A stretch of DNA of 26,026 nt from a virus. The notes below the pieces were generated by a model that made no database searches, was not told the origin of the DNA, and saw only the letters and a program-made list of their open reading frames with translations. Both the position numbers and the translations under genes were made by a program. The stretch lies in IMG/VR virus record IMGVR_UViG_3300049783_001389, positions 1 to 26,026 of that record. One strand, 5' to 3'. Positions 1 to 16,100 of the stretch are shown here, piece by piece (position 1 is the stretch's first letter; each line of letters begins with the position of its first letter).

Positions 1-16
1 TTTGTGGATTATCCAT
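1..16 (-). CDS. MORN-like repeat protein, array gene 11 (start only)
   Basis: Only the first five codons are in the window, reading MDNPQ. The start codon at 16-14 overlaps the stop of the preceding array gene (9-11) through the same 8-nt ATGGATAA arrangement seen at the other junctions, and the N-terminal MDNP is the family signature. The array therefore continues beyond the left edge, and its total gene number cannot be known from this window. Confidence 0.8.
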
Positions 17-284
17 ACTGCAACTTCATCATAACTTTTTCGCCATCTGTCAGGTCTGTATTTGCATCCAGCCAGTGATCAAATGAATACACTTGATTAT
101 TTAACCACCAGGACTTGCCGCCTGCATATTCGGTAGCAGGCCCATCTGTTCTGTGAAGTTTACCATTTACATACCATCTCTTGTTGCCATTTGCATATTC
201 ACAAGAAGGCCCATCAGTTCTATGCGGAAGACCATTCAGGTACCATCTCTTATTACCAAACTCATCAATTCTTGGCCTATCCAT
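9..284 (-). CDS. MORN-like repeat protein, array gene 10 (2 repeats, 91 aa)
   Basis: This is a small protein of unknown function in the tandem family. It begins MDRPRID instead of the usual MDNP, has two 23-residue repeats (HR at residues 21 and 44, WxLN-type turns at 14 and 37), then the conserved tail ending EKVMMKLQYG. It is one residue shorter than the other two-repeat members because one residue is missing in the second repeat (EYAGGKSWW), so the third aromatic turn falls at 59 instead of 60. Its start overlaps the stop of gene 9 by 8 nt, and this junction uses TAG (ATGGATAG) instead of TAA. No convincing Shine-Dalgarno sequence precedes the start, so translation probably depends on reinitiation after gene 9. 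A 71-nt stretch (135-205) is identical to part of gene 7 (1155-1225), suggesting recent exchange between paralogs. Confidence 0.85.
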   Translation of the reverse strand: MDRPRIDEFGNKRWYLNGLPHRTDGPSCEYANGNKRWYVNGKLHRTDGPATEYAGGKSWWLNNQVYSFDHWLDANTDLTDGEKVMMKLQYG

Positions 285-624
285 ACTGCAACTTCATCAT
301 AACTTTTTCACCATCTGTCAGGTCTGTATTTGCATCCAGCCAGTCATCAAATGTATAGCGCTGATCGTTTAAATACCAATCCATCTGGCCATTCGCCCAT
401 TCAACCGCCGCGCCATCTGTTCTATGACGATCGTCATTTAAATACCAACTCTTACGATCATTTGCATATACGATAGCAGGCCCATCTGATCTATGACGTT
501 CGCCATGCAGCCACCATTCTGTATCATTATCCCACCATTCAATAGCAGGCCCATCTGATCTATGACGTTCGCCATTTACATACCATTCCTTGGTACCATG
601 TTCATCAATTACTGGATTATCCAT
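277..624 (-). CDS. MORN-like repeat protein, array gene 9 (3 repeats, 115 aa)
   Basis: This family member has three 23-residue repeats with HR at residues 21, 44 and 67. The first two cores read HRSDGPA and the third HRTDGAA, the only core in the array where the proline is lost. The middle repeat is polar and charged (ANDRKSWYLNDDRHR). The C-terminal segment has the usual FDDWL motif and ends MMKLQYG. The start overlaps the gene 8 stop by 8 nt (ATGGATAA). A 48-nt stretch at 473-520 is identical to 2173-2220 in gene 4, showing that DNA blocks are shared by non-adjacent genes. Function is unknown; the repeat spacing and NG turns resemble MORN_2/YwqK-type beta-hairpin repeats, which is a similarity in pattern rather than proof of role. 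Confidence 0.85.
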   Translation of the reverse strand: MDNPVIDEHGTKEWYVNGERHRSDGPAIEWWDNDTEWWLHGERHRSDGPAIVYANDRKSWYLNDDRHRTDGAAVEWANGQMDWYLNDQRYTFDDWLDANTDLTDGEKVMMKLQYG

Positions 625-964
625 ATTGCAACTTCATCATAACTTTTTCACTATCTGTCAGTTCTGTATTTACTTCAAGCCATACATCAAATGTATAGCT
701 CCGATCGTTTAAATACCAATCCAGCGCGCCATCCGCCCACTCAATAGCAGGCCCATCTGTTCTGTGCAGCTTGTTATTTACATACCAACTATTGCGCTCA
801 CCTGCATATTCAAAAGCAGGGCCATCTGTTCTGTGCAGCTTACCATTTAGGTACCATTCTGTGTCGTTATCCCACCATTCAATGGCCGGCCCATCTGTTC
901 TATGCAGCAGACCATTTAGATACCATTTCTTGGTACCTGATTCACTAATTTCTGGATTATCCAT
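617..964 (-). CDS. MORN-like repeat protein, array gene 8 (3 repeats, 115 aa)
   Basis: This three-repeat member has HR at residues 21, 44 and 67 and all three cores reading HRTDGPA. The N-terminal cap MDNPEISESGTKxWYLN is almost the same as in gene 2, which points to a shared origin of these two caps. The tail has FDVWLEVN and ends SEKVMMKLQYG. The 8-nt overlap with gene 7 is ATGGATAA. The DNA in front of the start (an A/T-rich run ending ttgcaat) contains no purine-rich ribosome binding site, because the end of gene 7 here encodes VIIKLQYG and lacks even the GAAG found at other junctions. Coupled translation is therefore the likely way this gene is expressed. Confidence 0.85.
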   Translation of the reverse strand: MDNPEISESGTKKWYLNGLLHRTDGPAIEWWDNDTEWYLNGKLHRTDGPAFEYAGERNSWYVNNKLHRTDGPAIEWADGALDWYLNDRSYTFDVWLEVNTELTDSEKVMMKLQYG

Positions 965-1373
965 ATTGCAATTTTATAATAACTTTTTCTTCATGTGTCA
1001 AGTCTGGATTTACATCAAGCCATTCATCAAATGTATACATCTGATCATACAAACACCACCACAGACCACCATCTGGCCATTCTTCAGCAGGTCCATCTGC
1101 TCTGTGCAGCTGGCCATTTATATACCAACTCTTGCCACCTGATGCATATTCACAAGCAGGCCCATCTGTTCTGTGAAGTTTACCATTTACATACCATCTC
1201 TTGTTGCCATTTGCATATTCACAAGCAGGGCCATCTGTTCTATGACGTACTTCATTCAGCCACCATTCTTTTGAACCATCTGCCCGTTCAACAGCAGGGC
1301 CATTTGTTCTGTGCAGGAATCCATTTTCCCACCATCTCTTGGTACCTGTGCGATCAATTATTGGATTATCCAT
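957..1373 (-). CDS. MORN-like repeat protein, array gene 7 (4 repeats, 138 aa)
   Basis: This is the longest member of the array, with four 23-residue repeats (HR at residues 21, 44, 67 and 90), exactly one repeat (69 nt) longer than the three-repeat members. The first core is HRTNGPA, the second and third are HRTDGPACEYA, and the fourth is HRADGPAEE. The second and third repeats are nearly the same, fitting a recent internal duplication. The tail carries LWWCLYD before YTFDEWL and ends VIIKLQYG, with isoleucines where most paralogs have methionines. DNA at 1155-1225 is identical over 71 nt to 135-205 in gene 10. The start overlaps gene 6 by 8 nt. Confidence 0.85.
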   Translation of the reverse strand: MDNPIIDRTGTKRWWENGFLHRTNGPAVERADGSKEWWLNEVRHRTDGPACEYANGNKRWYVNGKLHRTDGPACEYASGGKSWYINGQLHRADGPAEEWPDGGLWWCLYDQMYTFDEWLDVNPDLTHEEKVIIKLQYG

Positions 1374-1644
1374 ATTGCAACTTCATAATAACTTTTTCGC
1401 CATGTGTCAGGTCTGAATTTGCGTCCAGCCATTTATCAAATGTATAGCAGGTATCATTTAAGCACCACCACAGCTCACCATCTGCCCACTCACAAGCAGG
1501 GCCGTCTGTTCTATGCAGGTTGCCATTTATAATCCACTCTTTGCTACCATCTGCATATTCAGCAGCAGGACCGTCTGTTCTATGCAGTTTGCCATTTGCA
1601 TACCAATGCCTGTCGCCAGCTTTATTAATTCTTGGATTATCCAT
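1366..1644 (-). CDS. MORN-like repeat protein, array gene 6 (2 repeats, 92 aa)
   Basis: This two-repeat member has HR at residues 21 and 44 and aromatic turns at 14, 37 and 60. The second repeat contains IINGNLHR, where the usual WYLNG turn has changed. The tail begins LWWCLNDTCYTFDKWL, with a cysteine pair four residues apart (C-x4-C spacing) shared with gene 3. It ends VIMKLQYG. The start at 1644 overlaps the stop of gene 5, whose end differs from the others (KLTHG), so the sequence just upstream of this start is ttaacac rather than ttgcaat. The overlap is nevertheless the same ATGGATAA. Function unknown. Confidence 0.85.
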   Translation of the reverse strand: MDNPRINKAGDRHWYANGKLHRTDGPAAEYADGSKEWIINGNLHRTDGPACEWADGELWWCLNDTCYTFDKWLDANSDLTHGEKVIMKLQYG

Positions 1645-1984
1645 GTGTTAACTTCATCATAACTTTTTCACTATCTGTCAGGTCTGTATTTACTTCAAGC
1701 CATTCATCAACTGAATACTCTTGATTATCTAAGTACCACTCTGCATCACCATCTGCATGTTCAACAGCAGGTCCATCTGTTCTGTGAAGTTTGCCATTTA
1801 TAAACCAAGCCTTTGCATCATCTGCATGTTCAATAGCAGGGCCATCTGTTCTATGACGTTCGCCATATAGATACCATTCAGTATCACCATCTGCATATTC
1901 AACAGCAGGTCCATCTGTTCTGTGCAGCCCGCCGTCTACCCACCATATCTTGGTACCTGTGTAATCAATATATGTATTACCCAT
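1637..1984 (-). CDS. MORN-like repeat protein, array gene 5 (3 repeats, 115 aa)
   Basis: This is the most divergent member at its ends. It starts MGNTYID instead of MDNP, through the junction ATGGGTAA, and finishes KLTHG instead of KLQYG. It has three repeats with HR at residues 21, 44 and 67, all with the HRTDGPA core, and two VEYADGD/VEHADGD segments. The tail motif is YSVDEWLEVN, with valine in place of the usual phenylalanine before DxWL. Despite these differences the 8-nt overlap with both neighbours is kept, which suggests that the overlap itself, and not only the encoded residues, is under selection. Confidence 0.85.
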   Translation of the reverse strand: MGNTYIDYTGTKIWWVDGGLHRTDGPAVEYADGDTEWYLYGERHRTDGPAIEHADDAKAWFINGKLHRTDGPAVEHADGDAEWYLDNQEYSVDEWLEVNTDLTDSEKVMMKLTHG

Positions 1985-2324
1985 ATTGCAATTTCATCAT
2001 AACTTTTTCTTCATGTGTCAGGTTTTTATTTGCTTCAAGCCATTCATCAAATGTGTACTCCTGATTATCTAACCACCAGGAATCCTGGCCATCTTCCCAT
2101 TCAATAGCAGGCCCGTCTATTCTATGACGGTTGCCATTTATATACCAAGTCTTGCGACCATTCATATATTCAATAGCAGGCCCATCTGATCTATGACGTT
2201 CGCCATGCAGCCACCATTCTTTACTACCATCTGCATATTCAATTGCTGGTCCATTTGTTCTATGAAGTTTGTTATTTGAATACCAAGTCTTGGTACCAAA
2301 CCGATCAATTTCTGGATTATCCAT
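1977..2324 (-). CDS. MORN-like repeat protein, array gene 4 (3 repeats, 115 aa)
   Basis: This three-repeat member has HR at residues 21, 44 and 67 and aromatic turns at 14, 37, 60 and 83, giving an exact period of 23. The cores are HRTNGPA, HRSDGPA and HRIDGPA. The segment EYMNGRKTWYING is shared with gene 2, and the DNA of that block is identical over 54 nt (2134-2187 and 2745-2798). A further 48 nt (2173-2220) match gene 9 exactly. The tail contains YTFDEWLEANKNL and ends EEKVMMKLQYG. The overlap with gene 3 is ATGGATAA. It appears to be a mosaic of blocks found elsewhere in the array. Confidence 0.85.
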   Translation of the reverse strand: MDNPEIDRFGTKTWYSNNKLHRTNGPAIEYADGSKEWWLHGERHRSDGPAIEYMNGRKTWYINGNRHRIDGPAIEWEDGQDSWWLDNQEYTFDEWLEANKNLTHEEKVMMKLQYG

Positions 2325-2595
2325 ATTGCAACTTCATCATAACTTTTTGTTCATGTGCCAGGTCTGGATTTAGTTCAAGCCATTCATCAAATGTATAGCA
2401 TTTATCATTTAAGCACCACCACAGCTCACCATCTATAAACTCAACAGCAGGCCCATCTGTTCTATGACGTTCGCCATATAGGTACCATTCTACATCACCA
2501 CCTGCCCATACAATAGCAGGCCCATCTGTTCTGTGCATCTGACCATTTAGCAGCCATCTCTTATTGCCTGATCCGTAAATTTCTGGATTATCCAT
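2317..2595 (-). CDS. MORN-like repeat protein, array gene 3 (2 repeats, 92 aa)
   Basis: This two-repeat member has HR at residues 21 and 44. The N-terminal cap MDNPEIYGSGNKRWLLN is followed by repeats with cores HRTDGPAIV and HRTDGPAVE. The tail starts ELWWCLNDKCYTFDEWL, with the same cysteine pair as gene 6, and is the only one reading DLAHEQ where the others have DLT. It ends KVMMKLQYG. The start overlaps gene 2 by 8 nt with no clear Shine-Dalgarno sequence. Cysteines at the repeat/tail boundary could be chance, or could matter for metal or disulphide chemistry; the sequence alone does not decide. Confidence 0.85.
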   Translation of the reverse strand: MDNPEIYGSGNKRWLLNGQMHRTDGPAIVWAGGDVEWYLYGERHRTDGPAVEFIDGELWWCLNDKCYTFDEWLELNPDLAHEQKVMMKLQYG

Positions 2596-2935
2596 ATTGC
2601 AACTTCATCATAACTTTTTGCTCATGTGTCAGGTCTGTATTTACTTCAAGCCATACATCAAATGAATAGATATGATTATTTAGGTACCAAGTCTTGCGAC
2701 CATCTGTATATTCACAAGCAGGCCCATCTGTTCTGTGACGCCGACCATTTATATACCAAGTCTTGCGACCATTCATATATTCAATAGCAGGCCCATCTAT
2801 TCTGTGACGTTCGCCATGCAGCCACCATTCTGCATTACCATCTGGCCATTCAACAGCGGGCCCATCTGTTCTGTGCCGGCGCCTATTTAAATACCATCTC
2901 TTGGTACCTGATTCACTAATTTCTGGATTATCCAT
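2588..2935 (-). CDS. MORN-like repeat protein, array gene 2 (3 repeats, 115 aa)
   Basis: This three-repeat member has HR at residues 21, 44 and 67, with cores HRTDGPA, HRIDGPA and HRTDGPA. The usual NG turn of the first repeat is NR (WYLNRRRHR), so the turn glycine is lost there. The GRKTWY element occurs twice within the protein, and the EYMNGRKTWYING block is shared with gene 4. The tail contains YSFDVWLEVNTDL and ends EQKVMMKLQYG. It overlaps gene 1 by ATGGATAA. As the second gene behind the promoter, its expression should follow gene 1 most directly if coupling is real. Confidence 0.85.
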   Translation of the reverse strand: MDNPEISESGTKRWYLNRRRHRTDGPAVEWPDGNAEWWLHGERHRIDGPAIEYMNGRKTWYINGRRHRTDGPACEYTDGRKTWYLNNHIYSFDVWLEVNTDLTHEQKVMMKLQYG

Positions 2936-3206
2936 ATTGCAATTTCATCATAACTTTTTGCTCATGTGTTAGGTCTGTATTTATTTCAAGCCATTCATCA
3001 AATGTGTAAGAATATCCATTTAAATACCATATCATAGTACCATCTGCACATTCAAGTGCAGGTCCGTCTGTTCTGTGACGCACACCATTTACCCACCAGC
3101 TCTTGTCACCACTTGCCCATTCAAATGCAGGCCCATCTGTTCTGTGCCGTACACCATTTAGCAGCCATCTCTTACTGCCATCTAGATCAATTTTTGGATT
3201 ATCCAT
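2928..3206 (-). CDS. MORN-like repeat protein, array gene 1, promoter-proximal (2 repeats, 92 aa)
   Basis: This is the first gene of the array in the direction of transcription. The reading frame stays open upstream to 3392, but the start is placed at the ATG at 3206. There the protein begins MDNPKID like its paralogs, its length becomes exactly that of other two-repeat members, and an AGAGG ribosome binding site lies 4 nt upstream. The upstream extension would encode unrelated sequence across the promoter. Two repeats are present (HR at 21 and 44, cores HRTDGPAFE and HRTDGPALE) with two WASGDKSWWVNGV-type turns. The tail has YTFDEWLEIN and ends EQKVMMKLQYG. It is the only gene of the array with a clear ribosome binding site, which fits entry of ribosomes here and passage down the array by coupling. 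Confidence 0.85.
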   Translation of the reverse strand: MDNPKIDLDGSKRWLLNGVRHRTDGPAFEWASGDKSWWVNGVRHRTDGPALECADGTMIWYLNGYSYTFDEWLEINTDLTHEQKVMMKLQYG

Positions 3207-3210
3207 TAGG

Positions 3211-3215
3211 CCTCT
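3211..3215 (-). promoter_or_regulatory. Ribosome binding site of array gene 1
   Basis: On the minus strand AGAGG ends 4 nt before the ATG at 3206. It decides the start of gene 1 and is the only good Shine-Dalgarno sequence found in the array. Confidence 0.65.
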
Positions 3216-3233
3216 GCATTTTCTTACTCGTAC

Positions 3234-3262
3234 TTTGTACAACAAGACATATTGGTTGTCAA
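3234..3262 (-). promoter_or_regulatory. Sigma-70-type promoter for the repeat array
   Basis: Reading the minus strand, TTGACA (3262-3257) is a perfect -35 box. It is followed after 17 nt by TACAAA (3239-3234), matching four of six -10 positions. Transcription would start near 3227, about 20 nt before the first ATG. The form is that of an early phage promoter read by unmodified host polymerase, unlike the late boxes in front of the plus-strand genes. Short inverted arms ACAAC (3239-3243) and GTTGT (3255-3259) lie inside it and could be an operator, but 5-bp arms may be chance. Confidence 0.6.
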
Positions 3263-3275
3263 GAAAAAAACGGTT

Positions 3276-3289
3276 ACATGGTATCATGT
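3276..3289. promoter_or_regulatory. Small palindrome upstream of the array promoter
   Basis: ACATG and CATGT flank a 4-nt centre (GTAT), giving a 14-bp imperfect palindrome about 14 bp upstream of the -35 box of the array promoter. It could be a regulator binding site in the divergent intergenic region. The arms are short, so this is tentative. Confidence 0.25.
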
Positions 3290-3296
3290 GGGCGGG

Positions 3297-3316
3297 CAAC
3301 CAACCAACCAACCAAC
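3297..3316. repeat. (CAAC)5 tetranucleotide repeat
   Basis: Five perfect CAAC copies (20 bp, followed by one further C) lie in the divergent region. On the minus strand they read as GG pairs separated by TT, a pattern able to form a two-layer G-quadruplex. The tract is outside the coding sequences as assigned here. It may be a slippage site altering spacing upstream of the array promoter. Confidence 0.8.
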
Positions 3317-3369
3317 CTGCTACTAAATCATAATTCAACAGTTTCAAATAAAAACGTGATTTCCTGCAA

Positions 3370-3377
3370 CATAAATA
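3370..3377 (+). promoter_or_regulatory. Late-type promoter box before gp25-like gene
   Basis: CATAAATA matches the NATAAATA late box known from T4-like phages and cyanophages (T4: TATAAATA). It ends only 5 nt before the ATG at 3383, so if it works like T4 late promoters the message would start at or next to the start codon. A weaker box, AATAAAAA at 3347-3354, is an alternative that would leave a normal short leader. Confidence 0.45.
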
Positions 3378-3382
3378 CTTGT

Positions 3383-3748
3383 ATGGTAACATTCATTGGA
3401 TTCTCCACAATCGGCAAACGTACAGGCACTCGCACCCTAGAGGACAAGGAGTTGGCTAAGCGCGACCTTCTTAATCATTTCTATACACGCAGAGGTGAAC
3501 GCCTGGGCGAACCAGAATTTGGTAGCATACTACCTGAACTTATTTTTGAACAATTTGATCAATTTGTTATTGATGCAGCAGATGATGATGTTCGCAGAAT
3601 TATTGATTTAGACCCTCGTTGGAGATTGCGTGATTATAATATTGATTCAGACAATCAAAATCTAACTATTACAGTTCAGTTAGAATATGTACCAAACCTT
3701 AGCAATGACACATTGGTTTTAGAATACACCAGAACGGAAGAGATTTAA
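3383..3748 (+). CDS. 25: Baseplate wedge protein, gp25-like (121 aa)
   Basis: This is a homologue of T4 gp25, a baseplate wedge protein that links the wedge to the tail sheath and shares a fold with T6SS gp25/TssE. The N-terminus FIGFSTIGKR, the LLNHFYTRRGERLGEPEFGS segment (about residues 31-50), LIFEQFD and the C-terminal LRDYNI followed by an alternating beta strand (LTITVQLEYV) are the family pattern. Length is close to T4 gp25 (132 aa). The frame is open further upstream, but the GFSTI motif belongs at the extreme N-terminus, so the ATG at 3383 is chosen; a GTG at 3356 is the only other reasonable start. No Shine-Dalgarno sequence precedes it, unlike every other plus-strand gene here. 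The gp6-like gene begins 3 nt after the stop, as expected for a baseplate operon. Confidence 0.88.
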   Translation: MVTFIGFSTIGKRTGTRTLEDKELAKRDLLNHFYTRRGERLGEPEFGSILPELIFEQFDQFVIDAADDDVRRIIDLDPRWRLRDYNIDSDNQNLTITVQLEYVPNLSNDTLVLEYTRTEEI

Positions 3749-3751
3749 CAT

Positions 3752-6700
3752 ATGGCACAAAATGTAAGACAAAGAAACTTGTTCTCAGCAGAAGACTACA
3801 GTGTAGTATATGATAGCTTCAAGCAAGCAAACTTTCAAGCATATGACTACGATACGATTCGTGGTGCATTGGTGGATTACATCCAACAGCAATATCCAGA
3901 AAATTATAATGACTGGATTCAAAGCAGTGAATTTGTTGCATTAATTGAAACGTTATCGTTTCTTGCACATTCGCTAGCATTTAGAATCGACCAAGCAGGA
4001 CGTGAAAACTTTCTTAGCACCGCAGAACGTCGTATCAGTGTTTTACGCATTGCTGACTTTCTGGGATACACTCCCAGTCGACATCAACCAGCGCGTGGGC
4101 AGTTAAAAATAACTGGCATCCGTACAACACAGGATGTATTTGATATTAATGGCGGCAATCTTAAAAACACAACGGTTGAATTTGAAGATAGTTTCCAAAA
4201 TTTCTTATTGGTTATGAATGAAATTCTCAGCCAAAAGAATAAATTTGGCCGGCCAACCAATAGTGTTCGCATTGGTAATGTTAAGAACGATATATACTCA
4301 ACCAATATTACTGATGACAGGAATGTAGTGTTTAGTATTAGTGGTGAAATTAACAGTGTACGTCGTAATTTTGAGATACATGGTCTTGAAGTTAATCAAT
4401 CAAAAAATGTGTTACAAGAAGTTACTCCTGATCCAACAGGTAATTTTGATTTAGTTTATAAAAATGATGGCCAGGGATTGGGCAGCAATAGTACCGGATT
4501 CTTTGTGGGATTCAAACAAGGAAATTTACAGTTCAGTGATTTTAATGCAGATAAAGCAATTAGCAATCTGGTTATTGACATTAATGCAACAAACGTTAAT
4601 AATAATGACATTTGGGTGCAATCGATTAATACCGCTGGAGAAGTCTCAGATTATTGGACAAAGGTTGATTCAGGATTTGGTGCAAACACAGTATTTAATA
4701 ATATACGACAAGATAATCGAAAGCTATATACTGTTAAAACTGTAGAAGATGACAATATTAATATAGTATTTGGTGATGGTGTGTTTAGCGAAATTCCTCG
4801 GGGAATGTTGCGTATTTGGTATCGTACAGGTATCAATCAAACATACAGTCTTGATCCTGATGATTTAAACTCAGTTACATTTAGTTTTGATTATAATGGG
4901 GCAAATGACAATACATATAAAGCTACGTTTACGTGTGAACTTCAGGAACCAGTAACGAACGCTGCATCGCAAGAATCAATTACAAGTATTAAAAACAATG
5001 CTGGTAGAGTGTTTGCAACACAGGATCGTATGATTACAGCCAGTGATTATTCTGTATATCCTTTAACTGTAAGTGAAAACGTTAAGAAAATTAAAGCAAT
5101 CAATAGGACATATGCTGGGCACAGCCGATTCATTACGCCGCGCGACCCCACAGGACAATATCAGAATGTAGACATGATATCTGACGATGGTTACATCTAT
5201 AGCGAGGGTGTTACGTATCGCAATAGCATAGCCTTGCCAGCAACATTATCAAGCGAACAGATTTATGAGAGATACATTGCTGATCTAATTGAAAACCCAG
5301 AAATTATCAATTTGTTTTATGACAAATACACTGTTAAAGATGTTGACTTTAGCACTGTCGCCGCCAGCTATGAATGGCAGCAAATTACATCTGGATATAA
5401 AGGATCAACAGGTTACCTTACACAAAATAGTGCAATACAAAAGGCAGGTACCACATCAGTCAATGATTTAAGTAATGCAGGTCCTGGCTCCATTGTAGAG
5501 TTTATTGAGTCACCGTATAATTCAGGAACACTTGGTGTTATTGGTACCACACTTACTATTGTTAATGCAGGTTCAGGATTTACTAGTCAACCATCAGTTG
5601 CAATACGTGGAACAGGTACAGGCGCAACGGCCACAGCAACAATATCAGGCGGACAATTGGCAGTGGTTACAATTACAAATGGTGGTTCTGGTTATCAGAA
5701 TCCTGTTGTAATTGAGATTATTGGCGGAAGCGGGACTGGTGCAATGGTTGTTGCGGCAGCAACAACTGCAACTCGTGGCTGGGCAAGGGTTATTGATATA
5801 GTAAGCGAAGGCCAGGGCATAACTGATAATAATGGTAACCCAACTGGTATTACCAGCAGAGGGCAAGGTGCTATAATTCTTAATAAAAGCATCCCCAATA
5901 CTGCCCGTGTTAGCCGTATTTTTCCTTCCTACAATACTGTGTTTAGCACAGATGAAAAGAATGCCATAATTGATGAAATTGCAGCGCTTAATACTTTCGG
6001 TTTGCGTTTTGAAAGTGATACAGGACTATGGAAAATTATCCGTGCTGGCGATTTGCCACCAATTAGCGAAAACGATCCAGATAACTTTAGCTTTGCCAAT
6101 GCTGGTAATGCTTCAAATAGCAACTTGGACCATAGCTGGATTATACGTGTAAATTATAGTGCAAATGCATGGCAATTTATATCACGACGTTCTCGTATAG
6201 TATTTGGTAGTGACACCAACATTCGATTTTATAACCAAAATGGTAAGCGTCGATTCAATGTTGAAACAAATAAACCAGAACGTGATCGTATTTTAATTAG
6301 CAGCACAAATACTCAGCCCGGCGGAGGACTTTCTCCATTAGCAGAATCACTGCCTTTCTTTACCCATCGTTATTTTACAGAATCAGATGGTTATACTGAT
6401 GATCGTAAGGTAATTGTAACGTTGGCTGATATTGACAATGACAATTATCCTGACAACCCACTTGCATTTAAAATGCTTGCTGGAACAGACACGATTGCAT
6501 TAAATACTATCACTGAGGACGGGCATACTTATACAGTTCGCAGTGACACTGGTGTATCTACTTCTGGCAGAGAAAAACTAACATTTACCTGGCGCCGTAT
6601 CAGTACAAGTAATTACCGTATTGACCCTAGTTTGAGTAACATTATTGACATCTTCGTTCTTAACCAAAATTACGATAATAAATACCGAGAGTGGATTGCA

Positions 6701-7180
6701 GATAGCCGTCTACCAGCAACTAAACCAGACGCACCAACCGATATAGCACTTGAAAAACAGTTTACAGGTATTGAAAGTAAAAAAGCAATCAGCGATAGTA
6801 TTGTTTATCGTGCAGCAGAATATAAAATTTTGTTTGGTGAGCTGGCTGACGTTGAACTGCAAGGTATATTTAAGATTGTGAAAGTATCAGGTACAACATT
6901 GACAAGTAACGAAATTAAATCTAAAGTATTGACCGCAATTAACGAATTTTTTAATATTGATAATTGGGATTTCGGTGAAACTTTCTACTTTACTGAACTA
7001 AGTGCATACATACACCAGCAACTGCCAGGTGTAATAGCTAGCATTGTTATCACGCCGACGCAAAGTAACAGTGTATTTGGAGACTTATTCCAGATAATCC
7101 CAGAAAGCAATGAACTATTCATTCCAGACGTAACATTAAGAGATATCGACATTGTCGATTCATTGAACGCATTAAGGTAA
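3752..7180 (+). CDS. 6: Baseplate wedge protein, gp6-like (baseplate J family), enlarged (1142 aa)
   Basis: This is a homologue of T4 gp6, the protein that forms the inner ring joining baseplate wedges. Residues about 30-115 show the typical start: YDTIRGALVDYI, a helical FVALIETLSFLAHSLAFRID segment, then FLSTAERRISVLRIADFLGYTPSR. A gp6-type RMITASDYSVYPL motif lies near residue 427, and the C-terminus (AINEFFNIDNWDFGETFYFTEL, then FGDLFQI and a beta tail) is the conserved end of the family. T4 gp6 has 660 residues; the extra length here includes a glycine-rich insert at about residues 599-670 with two GSGF/GSGY units that also occur as a module in the giant protein downstream. GGAAGAG precedes the start by about 9-11 nt. 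The gene lies between gp25-like and the giant gene with gaps of 3 and 4 nt. Confidence 0.88.
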   Translation: MAQNVRQRNLFSAEDYSVVYDSFKQANFQAYDYDTIRGALVDYIQQQYPENYNDWIQSSEFVALIETLSFLAHSLAFRIDQAGRENFLSTAERRISVLRIADFLGYTPSRHQPARGQLKITGIRTTQDVFDINGGNLKNTTVEFEDSFQNFLLVMNEILSQKNKFGRPTNSVRIGNVKNDIYSTNITDDRNVVFSISGEINSVRRNFEIHGLEVNQSKNVLQEVTPDPTGNFDLVYKNDGQGLGSNSTGFFVGFKQGNLQFSDFNADKAISNLVIDINATNVNNNDIWVQSINTAGEVSDYWTKVDSGFGANTVFNNIRQDNRKLYTVKTVEDDNINIVFGDGVFSEIPRGMLRIWYRTGINQTYSLDPDDLNSVTFSFDYNGANDNTYKATFTCELQEPVTNAASQESITSIKNNAGRVFATQDRMITASDYSVYPLTVSENVKKIKAINRTYAGHSRFITPRDPTGQYQNVDMISDDGYIYSEGVTYRNSIALPATLSSEQIYERYIADLIENPEIINLFYDKYTVKDVDFSTVAASYEWQQITSGYKGSTGYLTQNSAIQKAGTTSVNDLSNAGPGSIVEFIESPYNSGTLGVIGTTLTIVNAGSGFTSQPSVAIRGTGTGATATATISGGQLAVVTITNGGSGYQNPVVIEIIGGSGTGAMVVAAATTATRGWARVIDIVSEGQGITDNNGNPTGITSRGQGAIILNKSIPNTARVSRIFPSYNTVFSTDEKNAIIDEIAALNTFGLRFESDTGLWKIIRAGDLPPISENDPDNFSFANAGNASNSNLDHSWIIRVNYSANAWQFISRRSRIVFGSDTNIRFYNQNGKRRFNVETNKPERDRILISSTNTQPGGGLSPLAESLPFFTHRYFTESDGYTDDRKVIVTLADIDNDNYPDNPLAFKMLAGTDTIALNTITEDGHTYTVRSDTGVSTSGREKLTFTWRRISTSNYRIDPSLSNIIDIFVLNQNYDNKYREWIADSRLPATKPDAPTDIALEKQFTGIESKKAISDSIVYRAAEYKILFGELADVELQGIFKIVKVSGTTLTSNEIKSKVLTAINEFFNIDNWDFGETFYFTELSAYIHQQLPGVIASIVITPTQSNSVFGDLFQIIPESNELFIPDVTLRDIDIVDSLNALR

Positions 7181-7184
7181 ACAT

Positions 7185-10100
7185 ATGGCTAACGACTACA
7201 GCGCCAAACCAACAAACGTAAAGAACTTTACACAAAGTTTAGAGAGCAATTTAACACAGGATATTCAAGATTATAGTGAATTCCTACCAGAAATTAATCG
7301 CACTGAATCATTACAGCGGTTCTTTGGTTCCACAGTAAATCAACTTTTAAGCTCTGGCTCAACACAAAGTATTGATGCATACTGGGGTCGCCTCAGCGGC
7401 CGCAATTATAATCCTAATGCCGAATTATTCAATCCCGAAACAGACGATAAGCGGTTAAATTACCAATTCCTGCCAGGTGTTGTACAACGTGCAGCTGGTG
7501 TAACACAACAAACAACCAGCTATATCAATTGGTTAGACCGTATTGAAAGCCTGGGCGCAAATCTTAACAACCATGACCGCACCTTTAGTGAACCAGGCTA
7601 TGTATTGGATTTACCAATTAACTCTGATATGCTTGTTAACTATCGCAACTACTACTGGCTTGAAGGTGAGATTCCGCTTATTGTAATTGAAGCTACTATA
7701 GCCAATCCAATTGATATTGATGATATTACTTCCCAGAGCCAATATACTACACCAAGTCTTGAAAATTATCAAAGTGTAAAATTTGTCAGCGGTATCCGTG
7801 TACAATTTATTGGTGCACATGCAACCAGCACCAGTGGTAACTATGCAGTGGATGCAATTTATTATGTAGAGAACGTTGGCGGTAGACATGGTATCAAACT
7901 AATTGAGCAAGTAAATGCAACAGGTAAGATTACATTTGTATCAAATACGCCTTATGCAATTGCAGCATCTGAAGGTTATGATACTGTTGATTATGATACC
8001 ACTGCATGGGATGGAGTTGCAAATTTCCAGGAATATAATGTTACCACCACCGCGCTGCGCGATGATCTTAGTTTGAATAAAAGCTACGTTGTTATGGAGC
8101 GCTGGTCCCAGGACAAAAATCCCTGGGCACGTTCAAACAAGTGGTTTAGTATACATGCATTGCGTACCGCAGTCGAGTACAATACTCTGGATCTGGAAGC
8201 GTATATTAACACTCGTACCCGTTCTGACAGGCCAATTATTGAATTCCATGCAAACATGGAATTATTCAATACCTGCAAAAATTATGTTGACACTGTAGAT
8301 TATGCCGTTAACATAGACCAAATTACAGAAATACTCAGTGGTATACCTGCTTACAACATTGATAGCGAAAATGCACTTCAGAATGGCGACATTATTCTTG
8401 TAGCATTTGACGCACTAGCAGATCTTGAATTATCTTCCGTCGGCGCATTTGGACCAAGTTTTGGTCCATCATTCAATCGTGGAGTACAGGCGGCAACTGC
8501 CAACAAAGCTTACGTAGTGGGCGGAGTGGGCTCCAGCATTACTATTACTGAGGCACCTTCTCCTATTGATAACTTTATTGCTGACGATTATGTTATTGTT
8601 GTTAAAGGAACAGATAACGGAGCAATTTATTGCTTTAATGGCACTACTTGGAAACAGGCACAAAATAAAGAAAGTCGTGGAGACTTTCCAAAATTTGTTC
8701 TTTATGATGATAAATTAACAGCACTAGATGCGTATAGTGATTCTGATTTTGTTGGTGATAAAATCTTTGGTTACCAGGAAACTACTGCTGGCGCTTTTGA
8801 CCGTGAATTAGGCTTTTCACCAGCATTTAATGATCAGGGATCATTTAGTAATTACAGATTTGAATGGACACTTAATAACAATCGCTATAATCAGAGTGTA
8901 TTGACTGACAGTTCTGAAATACGCGGTCTATATTATTGGAAAGATTCTGTCAATGTTGAATACTACAATGGATGGAGTAACATCCGTGGTGGACAACGTG
9001 TTCCAGTTATGCAGACGCAAGTTGCAGCAAACAATGACAACATTGTATTTGACCTTGGGACAACGGCAGTTTCACAACCTACTGAATTTACGGTAACATA
9101 CGAAAATGGTGCATACCAATGGTATGATCACAGTTATATTGACCTTACGGCAATAGGATATGCGAATCCAGACTTTGTGTGGCAATCAGATACTGATTAT
9201 ACAATCAATGTTTTGGTTGACGATAGTACAACACCTATCCAGTTTGTGTCGCCAATGCGTGTGGCGCCAATGAATATAACAGGAGTCACATTAGTTTCCA
9301 ATGACCCTGTACAATTAACAGTTGCAGCAACCGCTGCCTTGAAAACTGGCGATAGTGTAAAAATAACCAATACTGTTGGTAGTGTAGAATTAAATGATAT
9401 TACCAAAGTAATTACAGTAATCAATGGTACTACAATTGAATTGCAGGGAACTGACAGTGGTGATTATACTGCTTGGATCTCTGGCGGTGCAATTGAAATC
9501 TTTGACGGGGATATTACATTAACACAAATTAACAATACAACATACACACTTAACATCAGCAGTCAATACAAATATGACCGTGTTATATATGAAAATAGAC
9601 AAATACAAACACAATTTGGTGAGATCTTTATCAATAATAATAACCATGAACGCTATTCAATTGTAAAAAATGGACAGCGGTTAATTGAAAACCAAGACTT
9701 CACACGCACTGGATCAAGTATTACAGTTACAGGCTGCGTGGTATACGATGTTGTTGAATTGCAATATATTGCCAACACTGATCTTGTAAATGCAGTATAC
9801 GATGTTGCACCTGTGCATTTCTATAACAATGATAACAAGGCGTTTACTGGTGCTGGATATGATGACATAATTAATCACCTTACACGACAGATGGCGGCAT
9901 TGCCAGGATTTACTGGTAGCACAGTTGGAGTCAATAATTATTACAACACATTGCGCCTAAATACATTTGATGGCCTAATCCGTCAACAGCGATTCCGCAC
10001 AAAAAATGTACAGCATTTAATGGACCAGGAGGATATTAATCCTATCCGTGCCCTGAAGAGCTTTTCGATTGATTATGCAAACTTTAAGAAATCACTGCGA

Positions 10101-13100
10101 AGCAAAGCCAAACAGCTATGGACAACAGAAAGCTGGAGCAATATACGTGAGTTGACTGATCGCGCATTAAGTGATATTAACTTGGGCAAGAACGACACAT
10201 TTAAGTACGCGCATAGCGACATGCTTTATTACAAACAGGCGCGTTCAATTACATATAATATTACCACAACGTTAACCACATTGGCCTTGCCAGAAGTTGT
10301 TAACCGCTATGGTGATACACAAAATCACGTGCAAGTTTATGTTAAAGAATTTGTTTCCGCTGCTGGTGTAATTCTGGAACGTCCGCTGGTCAGAGGTACT
10401 GAATACATTATAGAGGGTCCAAATATCACATTAACTACTGCCGTAACAAACGGTGCAGTGGTTACAATTCGTTGGTATGATCACAAACAGGTTAGCCATG
10501 TGCCATTTAGCGCAGTTAAGCTAGGATTCTTTAAGCCCACACAGGTGGAAATTGTAGGCGACGAACTAATAGGGCACGATGGTTCACGGCATGCAATAAC
10601 TGGTACAAGTGTAGTTGATATGAACTCCACAAGCTTTGATATTGAAACCGCTGTATTGTGGGATTTTGAACTTCGTATATATAACAACCTTGTTGATGCG
10701 CACTTTGTTGGTGATGATATTGTTGCTGACATGAATGAGTTTTATCCTGGGCCGCACCGCAAACTTGCGTACAATGTTGCAGATCTAAATATACGGCTTG
10801 ATGATTGGTACAATCGTTGGGCAGTGCGCAATAATGTCAGTGTAATTGATGATGTTGCGTACGATAATGGTAACGAATTTACTTGGAACTATTCATCAGT
10901 TGGCCCTAATTTAGGTAGCTGGCGTTCAGTTTATGTTTATTATTTTGGTACAGATCGCCCACATACTCATCCTTGGGAGATGCTTGGTCACTCAGTAAAG
11001 CCAGTTTGGTGGGATGCAACGTATTCTTGGACTGCAGGAGCATTGCGCACCGCGTTGGAAAATGCGCTTACATATGGTATAACAGGCAACGCAACCAGCG
11101 CAGACTTTGTTGATGTACGTTATGCAAGAAACAGCTATAATTGGTCTGCAAATTCGATTGTCAGTGATAACGGATTAGCAGTTTTAAATAATCCTGTTAG
11201 CGGACAAGTGGTACCATCACCATCAGCACAGCCTGCCAGCCAGAGCTTTGTATTTGGTGACTGGAGTGAAATCGAAAACAAGTGGCGTAAAAGTAGCGAG
11301 TATCTGTTTGCTCTTGCTGAAGTATATTTGCAACTAAAACCATACCGTACACATGAAACATTCTGGCAACTTGCCAGATGGGAGCGCAATCGTACAGTAA
11401 CACAGGAACAATGGATTGATCCAGACACATGCCAACGTCAGCATATATCAGAATTGCACAACCAATTAATTACTGATGGTGTCATCAGTAAAATTAAAGT
11501 GACTGCTCCTGGCACTGGTTATACAACCTTGGACCTTGAATTTATAGCAGATAATGTATGCTACCACAACCCAGAGGCTGTTGCTTATACAAACAGCGGC
11601 GGAGTTGTTGGTGTTTCTATACAACAGCCAGGTAGAGGCTTTAATAACGCACCAACAGTTGTCCTTACAGGGAGCACAGGTGCGGTAGGCGCAGAACTAG
11701 AATTTAGCTTGGATTTTGACTTTGTAGTAACACATCTTGGATTTAATAGTTTACCAGCTGAGGAATACCGTGAGATTGAAGCCCATACTAATAACTTGGC
11801 AGACCGCCTGGAAAATTTGGAATTGAACTATATGCTACACGTTGGTGGCTACACTGACAAGCGTATTATGACAATAGAAATCGATGGCGACTTTTCAAGC
11901 GGAAACATTAAAATTCCAGACAATAGTTATGATATCTTAATTGACCGTAATGCACCTATCAAGACCGCCTTTTATTCTGGTGTCAAAATTGAAAAACTAG
12001 CTGACTCCAGCTATCAGGTAACAGGTTATGACTTAGACAGTGCTTATTTCCAATTCCTATCACCAAGTACAGCTGGCAAAGCTGTTAGCGTAAACGTTGG
12101 TAATACTGAGGTTGTCAAGCATCTTAAATGGCGCAATGAAATAAAACGTATTCCATACCGTAGCAGATTTATTAAACGTCAAGAGTTGTATCAGTTTCTA
12201 TTAGGTCTTGGCAAGTATTATGACAGTATTGGATTTGATGTAGTTGCTGAATGGGAAGTAGATGCTCTTGAAGCTATTGCATGGGCACTTGATGCTACAC
12301 AAACAGAACCGTTTTTTGTGAATGGTATTGTCACTGCATTAGATTATTACCAGGGGGAGCGTGGTCTGCTTCAAACAATTGATGTCAATTATGATGGCGC
12401 AGTCAACATTTTGGATAATAAGTTTAAGAAAATTAGACGTTCAGAAATGCTGGTACTACGAGATAACACAAAGACTGAAATAGGTATGGCGGACCAGTCT
12501 GATCGCATTTATGGAATTGGTGTTCGCGTAATTGAATTTGAACATATCATCACTCTGCAAAATAATACAACGTTCAATGATCCAATTTACCAGCCAGAAA
12601 TTGGTGTGGGCCAGAAGCGTGTGCACTTAATAGGTGAACGTACCCGCAACTGGAATGGCCGTGTTGAGGCACCAGGATATATTGTACAAGATCGTGGACT
12701 TGTGCTCAATATTGAAAGTAGCGTCCGTGAACTAGAACAAGATTGGGTATCAGCAGAAAGTAAAGCACTTGAGCGACTAACGCGTCAAACAATTGGCTAC
12801 AATGTTGGATACTCAAAGCCAACATATATGACCAATATGTTTATTTCTGATAAAAGCGCATACAACTTTGAAAAAGGGCAGCGCAAGTATAAGGGAACAT
12901 CAGCAGCGATTTCTGCAATGGCCAGAAACAAAAACATCTTTGGTACATCCTTTAACCATGAACTTTACGAAGAATGGATGGTACGTTTGGGTGATTATGG
13001 TGATGTGTCTGAGCGTAACCCGTTGCAGTTTGCTGTTGATCCTAATAAAATAAAAACTGATCCACAGCACTTTAGATTTAATGACACCTTTGTAAGTGAT

Positions 13101-16100
13101 CGTCAAGAAGATTTAATTGTAGATTTACACAAAGGTGCATCTGATGCGATCAGCGGTAATTTTAGTACACCGTTTGACGTCTTTGACGTGCTGCGATTGG
13201 ACAACACAAGTATACAGACCCTTAATAAGTATCAAACGTTTACTCGTGATGCTGGTCTTCCTATTGTTAATGAAATTGATTATTTCCTAGGATCAATTGA
13301 CGATATTGGTGACATTTATGACCCAACACAAAAATATGCACTTATCCCAAATTGGAGCGAGACAACTGCATACATTCAAGGCGACATGGTACGTAGATTT
13401 GGTAAAGTACACACCTTAGCAATTGCAACAACTGGTCTCACTGCCATACAAGATGACATTGTGGTTCGTGGCACACAAGTATTCCCGTTGGTTAATAATG
13501 GCTTGACATTTGTTGCCAATGGCAATACTGTTACGTTCGCAAAATCTAGTACTAATATTACATATGATACCATTGTAGTTAATGGTACTGTAACTAATCC
13601 TGTAATATCAAGCGGTAGCACTCTAACATTGGATAGTATCAATGTCAACTTTATTAAAACTCAAACTACAACTTCGTTTGGTGATATTGTAATTGATGGT
13701 AATGTAACCAACCCAACTATACAAAACAGTGCATCACGTGAATTAACGATCAGTTATGCAAGTAATGCTACCAACACGCTTACACCAGTAACAGTGGCAT
13801 TTAACGAGTTAAACACTACTTTAACCATGCAAGCAATCTGGGTTGCTGTATTAAGTGCCACATCTGAATCAGATCCGCTGGGCAAAACAGCAAGCCGTTT
13901 GACAGCACTTGAAACACTGCGCCAAGCGTACACAACAGCGACCAGCATAGCAGCATGGGAAACTTGGATTGGCAACTATTATAATGCCGCAGTTAACCCT
14001 GACCGTTATGTTAATCCTGAATATGTTGGTGATCAAGTAGCCGCCAACATAGGTGCTACATGGGAAAGTGCAGCCCGCACTCTAATCCAATTAGACTTGG
14101 ATTTGCTCACATCATTAGCAGGAACGCATACAGAAACAGAAAACACATTAGTTTCTGGTCGCGGCAGCTATAATAATAGTGCGACGTTTGATGCTGATGT
14201 ATTATCAGTTAATAACTTGTTGGATTTCAACAATACAGCATCTGATGTAAATGAAAATTTACAAGACTTTAGAGCTTTTGTTGCAGCCAATGGGGGAACA
14301 TCTATTGCAGATGGTACTGAAGTAACAGTAACCAACCCAACAGAATACATAACAGATACTCTTGCTACAATTGGCAACAAAATTACTACCGCATTAGCAT
14401 TGGCTAACGCACCAGCTGGCATCACCGTTTCCTTAACTGGCAATGTTATTACGTTGCGACGCACAAGTAATTTGGTTGGATCCCGCTTGGGTGTATCAAT
14501 TGATACTGCTTTAGGATATACGGTTGCTGACAATGATGTTGCCACACAGAGTACAACGGTAACAGGACCTGTTGATTTAACGTTGTCAGAAGCTGTGACA
14601 GCGGTAAACAATGCAAGTATAACTGGTGTTAGTGCGCAAGCAATTAACAATAAAATGCAAATTTCCAGCACTAATCAAAATTTGATAATAGGTAGCGGTA
14701 CAGCCAACACCAACATTGGTGTTAATTTTGGAACAATTAATGCAACCACCAACACATCAGTGGTGCTTACTAATTTGGCCATTGGTGATGTAGTAACACA
14801 AATTAACAATGCAGCAATCACTGGCATTACAGCCAGTCAGGTTGAAGGCGCATTATTGATTACATTCGTTGGTAGTGTACTTACAATTGGTGCAGGTACA
14901 GCTAATATTGAATTGGGTATTGATGAAAATGTGTATAGCAGCTTAACTGATGCAGTACAGAACATATTTAATGAAGCTGATTGGAATGTAGCACAGGAAC
15001 CTGCACACTTTAATATTTGGACAATTGACAATATTGGGGCTAATTCCATAGGTCCTAGTAGCACAACCAATCGTTATGACGTTTATCAAACATTAGATTT
15101 TCAAATTGGTGTAACTGAAATTTGCGCTGGTAACGAAAATGGTGATGATGCGTTGGTGTTCGTCAATAAAGAGCATACCCTTGCGGTTGGCGAGTATGTA
15201 TTCATTATTAATTCAACATGTATTCCCAGCGTGGATGGAATCCACCAGGTTACGTCATTGCAGGGCGAGTTTGGATTTTACATAGATAGGTATATTGAGC
15301 AGAAAGGATTTACTGGCAAAGTAATACCAATTCGTTCAGTTCGCTTCTCTAACTCAGCGGACGCGACCAATGCACTAAGCAATACATCTTATGTACAAGC
15401 GTCATTGGGTCTGCGTACTAATGATTATATATACGTTGATGCACTATTGGATAGCAATGATAACAGTTTGGGCTATGGGGCAGTGTATACTATTGGAAGA
15501 ACTGATACTGGCGCTGGCTTAACATTGGTTCGTAATGAAAATGGTAAAACAGACAACAGCAAAATTAAGAATGGTATCCTGTATAACAATACAGATGGAG
15601 AAACAATAACACGTTTTGAAGTATTTGACCCATTGAAAGGTATCATCCCTGGTATTGCAGATATCGAAATCAATCTACGTAGTGATGTTGATTTTGCATA
15701 CTATAACAGTTCAACTGACCCTGAGTTGGAAGTACGTATTGAAAATGCATGGGGCCAAAAGCAGATTGGTACTGTATGGTGGGACTTGCAGAATGCTATA
15801 TATCTAAACTATGACCAGGGCACACCAGAATACCGTCAAGAGCAATGGGGGCAACTATTCCCAACAGGTAGCATTGACATTTATGAATGGACTAAAAGTC
15901 CAGTAACACCTGATGAATATCTTGCAGCCGTAAACGCTGGCACAATCATTGATGGTATTGAATTGACGGGGACACCATATGTTTTGGAAGACCAGTTTGG
16001 TGAAGCACAATACAGTTGGAGTGAAGAACTAGAGGTAAATCGAAATACCAATCAGATTGAAACATACTATTACTTCTGGGTTAGCAACAAAACAACAACG

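Follow-up and report, generated by a model that had tools for sequence, protein, structure and literature searches.

Why would a phage carry a row of at least eleven small, similar genes, each of which begins inside the last codons of the preceding one? This question is raised by one end of the IMG/VR virus record IMGVR_UViG_3300049783_001389, which was analysed as a whole (26,026 bases, here termed the window). The answer that we favour, and to which we give about an even chance, is that the array is the cargo of an accessory cassette: its genes after the first would be translated by reinitiation without Shine-Dalgarno (SD) motifs, its copies would be made by recombination, and its products would form a shuffled repertoire of binders directed against proteins of the host or of rival phages.

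The minus strand from position 3206 down to 9 holds ten complete open reading frames (ORFs), and an eleventh leaves the contig (Table 1). Eleven genes are a minimum, because the contig terminates within the array; the assembly probably broke within the repeats at this end, which hides the remainder. All ten junctions were reread at their coordinates and are 8-nt overlaps, eight of them ATGGATAA, one ATGGGTAA and one ATGGATAG, which confirms both the gene count and the constant overlap reported in the first-pass annotation. Since a second contig, L009, has 12 homologous genes whose 11 overlaps are likewise of this 8-nt type, a chance origin of the overlaps is excluded; junction 5/6 of the window matches junction 1/2 of L009. 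A polyprotein made by frameshifting was rejected, as each copy has a conserved start and stop. At L009:3026-3055 the remnant of the 3' end of a family gene (AAAGTTATGATGAGGCTGCAATATGGATAATCC) precedes the first array gene, and one A-to-G change relative to the in-array sequence makes GAGG, the SD motif of that gene.

The overlaps of the window very probably mean SD-less termination-reinitiation, as judged from spacing and motif content. All ten junctions, at -8 nt, lie within the distance between stop and start of about -8 to +5 nt that is expected of coupled genes; according to a review, -8 is listed among the enriched spacings and coupling can also occur in the absence of an SD motif (PMC12548453). 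For comparison, GGAG, GAGG, AGGA or AAGG at 3-12 nt before the start was counted as SD motif and a junction of -20 to +5 nt as tight, with the same start-calling rule for the array and the other codirectional pairs. Averaged over 36 loci, 69% of the array junctions are tight versus 37% of the other codirectional pairs (Wilcoxon p=1.6e-4), and the per-locus means for an SD motif are 32% in arrays versus 72% in others (14 loci, p=0.0075), p-values which are indicative because the background gene calls are simple and many loci are related. At tight junctions SD motifs were found in 29/131 array pairs versus 142/246 other pairs. The window itself has none at nine internal array starts, versus six at the seven other codirectional starts. 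The earlier statement that only gene 1 has a ribosome binding site thus stands for the internal starts, which are without SD motif, but the AGAGG of gene 1 is itself weak. In the L012/L013 lineage, the start at -8 is out of frame and a replacement start is present at 0 or -1 nt.

RNA folding at nine junctions revealed no structure beyond that of shuffled sequences (z -0.7 to 1.5), which favours direct reinitiation; coupling by RNA unfolding was rejected for this reason. Promoters and terminators inside the array were not above chance, and no terminator was found within positions 1-3800. It is strongly suggested by the junctions that gene 1 would be initiated de novo and the later genes by SD-less termination-reinitiation at ATGGATAA. 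As imperfect reinitiation would lead to a falling gradient, distal products would probably be present at falling levels unless reinitiation is near complete, and the fixed product ratio proposed earlier does not follow from the sequence.

How did the overlap become so uniform? Each array keeps its own constant junction, and arrays differ from one another: the junction is -8 in the window, L009, L025, L030 and L065, -7 in L014, -4 in L020, L023, L034 and L038, -11 or -14 in L097-L099, +3 to +5 in L035, L048 and L076, and +14 to +53 in L049, L083 and L095. Uniformity inside an array is therefore for the most part inherited with the duplicated unit, and because the overlap bounds this unit at both ends, recombination preserves it. 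Homologous arrays thus do not generally share one overlap, as had been proposed as a check, and some have spacers of 14-53 nt. Selection had been suggested to have kept the overlap through the duplications for the sake of coupling; the coupling is supported by the tight, SD-poor junctions, but the part of selection was overstated, as the overlap is the unit boundary. Judged by their sequences, the array copies recombine with each other; genes 7 and 10 contain an identical 71-nt block, offset by one repeat. In a tree the paralogues of the window and L009 interleave; those of L184, L025 and L030 each form one group and are therefore separate expansions. Coupling is also favoured by the proportion of synonymous differences (pS), which is 0.01-0.04 at codons 2-5 versus 0.42-0.52 at codons 6-12, although this is partly forced by the overlap. 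New copies would have arisen, as is strongly suggested, via unequal recombination of the overlap-bounded units and of the 69-nt repeats inside the genes.

Such a history could also be near-neutral, with slippage or unequal crossing-over copying units bounded by ATGGATAA for dosage only and without any collective function. This would agree with the array-specific junctions, with the mosaic blocks between copies, with the variation in copy number at a single site between 0 and at least 11, and with the existence of arrays with spacers. However, all ten complete copies are open and have a dN/dS (ratio of nonsynonymous to synonymous rates) below 1, the paralogues are diverged (pS 0.25-0.41) and are not fresh duplicates, and the independent arrays L184, L025 and L030 and many others keep tight, SD-poor junctions. 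We regard such near-neutral amplification as rather unlikely.

The genomic setting of the array, which is newly recognised here, points to an accessory function. The window is the tail module of a jumbo myovirus, with gp25- and gp6-like baseplate genes matching those of Atu_ph07, PA5oct and related phages. Upstream of the array a TTGACA-N17-TA promoter was found, and the same element is present at the same site in relatives (12/12 in L183/L184, where it is a perfect TTGACA-N17-TATAAT, and 10-11/12 in L194, L187, L201 and L182), on the strand opposite to gp6 and 406-428 nt before it, compared with 490 nt in the window. In 17 loci the site is empty: the spacing between the upstream tail gene and gp25 is -25 to +13 nt, with 2 nt as the commonest value, and neither TTGACA-N17-TA nor a family gene is present. 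Fourteen loci have the promoter, and each of the six loci whose site carries family genes on the minus strand is among them; several compared contigs are near-duplicates, however, and the independent loci are fewer than counted. Occupied sites carry at least 11 family genes in the window, six in L183/L184, five in L194 and one in L187/L197. Among the six of L183/L184 lies an unrelated 280-aa gene, and unrelated small ORFs occupy the site in L170, L182, L196, L171, L174 and L201; L178 is an occupied site without the promoter. Promoter, empty site and copy-number variation are thus established by sequence comparison. The site is empty in close relatives and the cassette has its own promoter, as in phage morons, and the array can be assumed to be the amplified cargo of an optional, moron-like cassette with a host-type sigma-70 promoter, inserted divergently between two tail genes. 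The single transcript would, as is strongly suggested, be made from this promoter by the host polymerase. An association with the tail as such was rejected, since near relatives are without the array and the L009 array lies elsewhere. Downstream of gp6, window positions 7185-18185 form a single ORF of 3,666 aa that belongs to the tail module.

Table 1. Coordinates of the array genes, the probable control elements and the adjoining baseplate genes in the window.
Feature	Position	Strand	Remarks
Array gene 1	2928..3206	-	92 aa; ORF open to 3392, start 3206 chosen from paralogues
Array gene 2	2588..2935	-	115 aa; overlap 2928-2935 ATGGATAA
Array gene 3	2317..2595	-	92 aa; overlap 2588-2595 ATGGATAA
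Array gene 4	1977..2324	-	115 aa; overlap 2317-2324 ATGGATAA
Array gene 5	1637..1984	-	115 aa; starts MGNT, ends LTHG; overlap 1977-1984 ATGGGTAA
Array gene 6	1366..1644	-	92 aa; overlap 1637-1644 ATGGATAA
Array gene 7	957..1373	-	138 aa, four full repeats; overlap 1366-1373 ATGGATAA
Array gene 8	617..964	-	115 aa; overlap 957-964 ATGGATAA
Array gene 9	277..624	-	115 aa; overlap 617-624 ATGGATAA; modelled with AlphaFold2
Array gene 10	9..284	-	91 aa; overlap 277-284 ATGGATAG
Array gene 11 (start only)	1..16	-	ATGGATAATCCACAAA; overlap 9-16 ATGGATAA; cut by contig end
Short leader	3207..3225	-	sole SD-like motif of the array, AGAGG, 4 nt upstream of gene 1 ATG
Cassette promoter	3234..3262	-	-35 TTGACA 3262-3257, 17-nt spacer, -10-like TACAAA 3239-3234
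gp25-like baseplate wedge gene	3383..3748	+	divergent from cassette; right flank of insertion site
gp6-like baseplate wedge gene	3752..7180	+	used for locating related phages

All array proteins consist of a 13-residue start, two to four units of 23 residues (W-Y-L-N-G-x-L-H-R-T-D-G-P-A-x-E-Y-A-D-G) and a conserved tail, YTFDEWLxxNxxLTxxEKVMMKLQYG. An AlphaFold2 model of gene 9, made with a 30-sequence alignment, consists of repeated short hairpins and two terminal helices (predicted local distance difference test, pLDDT, 95.9). Its top Foldseek matches are MORN1 crystal structures (probability 0.99 and 0.97, with weak E values of about 5e-3), and VIA-align gave Z values of about 5, with single-sheet proteins like the CPAP G-box reaching at most 6.8 and MORN4 6.5. 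The predicted fold is accordingly that of a MORN-like sheet. A Pfam search of the window proteins gave no MORN match, and MORN_2 appeared only below the cut-off, in the relatives L071, L036 and L090. DUF6745 (PF20530) scored 26.8, 24 and 14.1 bits against window genes and did not reach its gathering cut-off of 27, which is exceeded by the relatives L052 (59.5), L080 (41.4) and L018 (39 bits). NCBIfam gave no match, and in PHROGs the array genes had only weak matches to families of unknown function. While the first-pass annotation saw no function readable from the sequence, the fold can be read, as a prediction.

Purifying selection appears to act on the array proteins and to constrain their framework. 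The dN/dS of the window copies is 0.38-0.95, and the proportion of nonsynonymous differences (pN) exceeds pS at positions 2, 3, 15 and 17. A panel of binders fits because of the accessory location, the variable repeat number, the constrained framework and the few positions with pN > pS. Based on sequence comparison and the model, the most likely role of the products would be that of an accessory repertoire of protein binders. They may be scaffolds whose repeat number and residues at a few strand positions vary from copy to copy, and together they would serve against host or rival phage proteins rather than as virion parts of fixed stoichiometry.

A structural role would imply that the coupled genes supply the subunits of one hetero-oligomeric complex in set or graded proportions, possibly one linked to the tail or virion. 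The array indeed lies next to genes of the baseplate, genes encoding heteromeric complexes show an excess of short overlaps (PMC10666635), MORN1 proteins dimerise (PMC7725318), and some relatives have the repeats joined to a domain akin to a virion protein of PA5oct. However, closely related phages are without the array, the L009 array lies beside MoxR/VWA genes, and the cassette has its own divergent promoter. Single homologues also exist, including a P12053L gene with its own AAGGAG, which weakens the hetero-oligomer suggested earlier in its obligate form. Taken together, such an assembly is improbable. The fusions mentioned are found in L203 (160-4869, 8486-9727) and L205 (4326-5420, 9037-11207), where tandem copies that overlap by 4 nt flank gp6 on either side, and the repeats follow an N-terminal domain with the motif GKNTRWCTAA. 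This domain is homologous to EST35_0205 of PA5oct, a virion protein according to electrospray ionisation tandem mass spectrometry (ESI-MS/MS); it is likewise fused to repeats in L021/L017/L066, and the model of this 'WCTA' domain (L203/L205/L021) has a pLDDT of 46.

That the products are counter-defence decoys, many cheap variants titrating a host immune sensor or toxin, is quite improbable: the accessory cassette with its host-type promoter, the paralogue variation and the expansion in many uncultured phages would agree with it, but none of seven proteins tested matched PADLOC, for which reason a known defence or counter-defence family was rejected.

Several observations weigh against the explanation that we prefer. 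The arrays with 14-53 nt spacers (L049, L083, L095) show that arrays can form without coupling. The -10 element of the window (TACAAA) is weak and the promoter score alone is matched by 17% of random contig segments, so that the case for this promoter rests on its position and its conservation in relatives. As the overall dN/dS is below 1, the variable positions could be relaxed instead of diversifying. Finally, the repeats may have a virion role, as in the distant relatives L203/L205 they are fused to the domain whose PA5oct homologue is a virion protein.

How widespread are such arrays? Among 600 candidate stretches of IMG/VR, at least 453 relatives were identified with the family alignment, and relatives are present in at least hundreds of uncultured viral contigs, often as arrays. 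The assumption that phages usually avoid carrying many near-copies is thus untrue for this repeat family. Among 50,697 cultured-phage records the family is nearly absent, with a handful of matches, and the window's own protein matches only Atu_ph07, P12053L and one uncultured record. The contigs G018 and G019 have 112 family matches each, and G020 has 83. Three 20-kb pieces (L166, L167, L169; 60 kb) of G018, a record of 128,541 bases, hold 49 family ORFs as well as a ThyX-like gene with an apparent intein and an IMP (inosine monophosphate) dehydrogenase-like gene. In bacterial and archaeal assemblies single genes were found at 62 of 73 loci, and the viral set examined had 14 strand-loci with runs of at least six genes and 34 with a single one. 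L097-L099 (JABXKB010000001.1) contain large arrays whose genes overlap by 11 or 14 nt and mostly have an SD motif at the junction; this contig, binned as Lokiarchaeota, is probably viral. Other members have a different architecture: L071:1966-3123 encodes ten repeats after an apparent twin-arginine-type signal peptide (RRGLFKSGILGLIAPSVAKA), and L086:3732-6425 an 897-aa protein with seven repeats, of which the preceding part looks DNA-binding- or nuclease-like by eye. The contig of L014, G005, contains family matches with in-frame stops at 277535-277816 and 280358-280636, possibly decaying copies.

Literature searches on this repeat, on MORN repeats in phages and on tandem paralogue arrays yielded no description of such arrays; the nearest finding is that MORN repeats are enriched 37-fold in marine viromes from long reads relative to assemblies (PMC9238414). 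This repeat family, of which no member has been studied, thus occurs in at least hundreds of uncultured viral contigs and is nearly absent from cultured phages. Its arrays offer a natural range of cases in which the reach of serial SD-less reinitiation can be measured, and sister phages with an empty or an occupied site can be compared to test the function. If the binder repertoire is true, it would be a new kind of phage diversification for which no reverse transcriptase is needed. The wider generalisation, that arrays of MORN-like binders, driven by a promoter, shuffled by recombination and translated by serial SD-less reinitiation, are kept by many uncultured phages as a repertoire that can be expanded against changing host or rival proteins, is tentative and rather doubtful at present.

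Each part of the system has a known counterpart. With termination-reinitiation at overlapping genes the array shares the -8 spacing, one of three enriched overlaps, and the tolerated absence of an SD motif (PMC6728339, PMC10666635, PMC12548453), but it differs in its ten consecutive, probably coupled paralogues with zero internal SD motifs. Phage morons, which are accessory genes inserted between late genes and equipped with a separate promoter, resemble the cassette in the sigma-70-type promoter, the empty sites of relatives and the interchangeable cargo, whereas here the cargo is amplified into a multigene array that is probably translationally coupled and the phage is apparently a lytic-type jumbo phage and not a known prophage. 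The MORN repeat proteins (Trypanosoma/Toxoplasma MORN1, MORN4, junctophilins; Pfam MORN_2, PF07661) have a 23-residue unit in common with the window proteins and an extended antiparallel sheet like the predicted one, but the window proteins are set apart by their HRTDGPA motif, the two-helix tail and the absence of a MORN Pfam match. DUF6745 has the repeat motif in common with the window proteins, but these stay below its cut-off and align with no more than parts of the 206-residue model. Among the lineage-specific expansions of jumbo phages, Bacillus phage G with about 35 zinc-ribbon copies (PMC7824862) is similar in the great expansion of one small family, whereas the array of the window is strictly tandem, probably coupled and of a kind common to many phage lineages.

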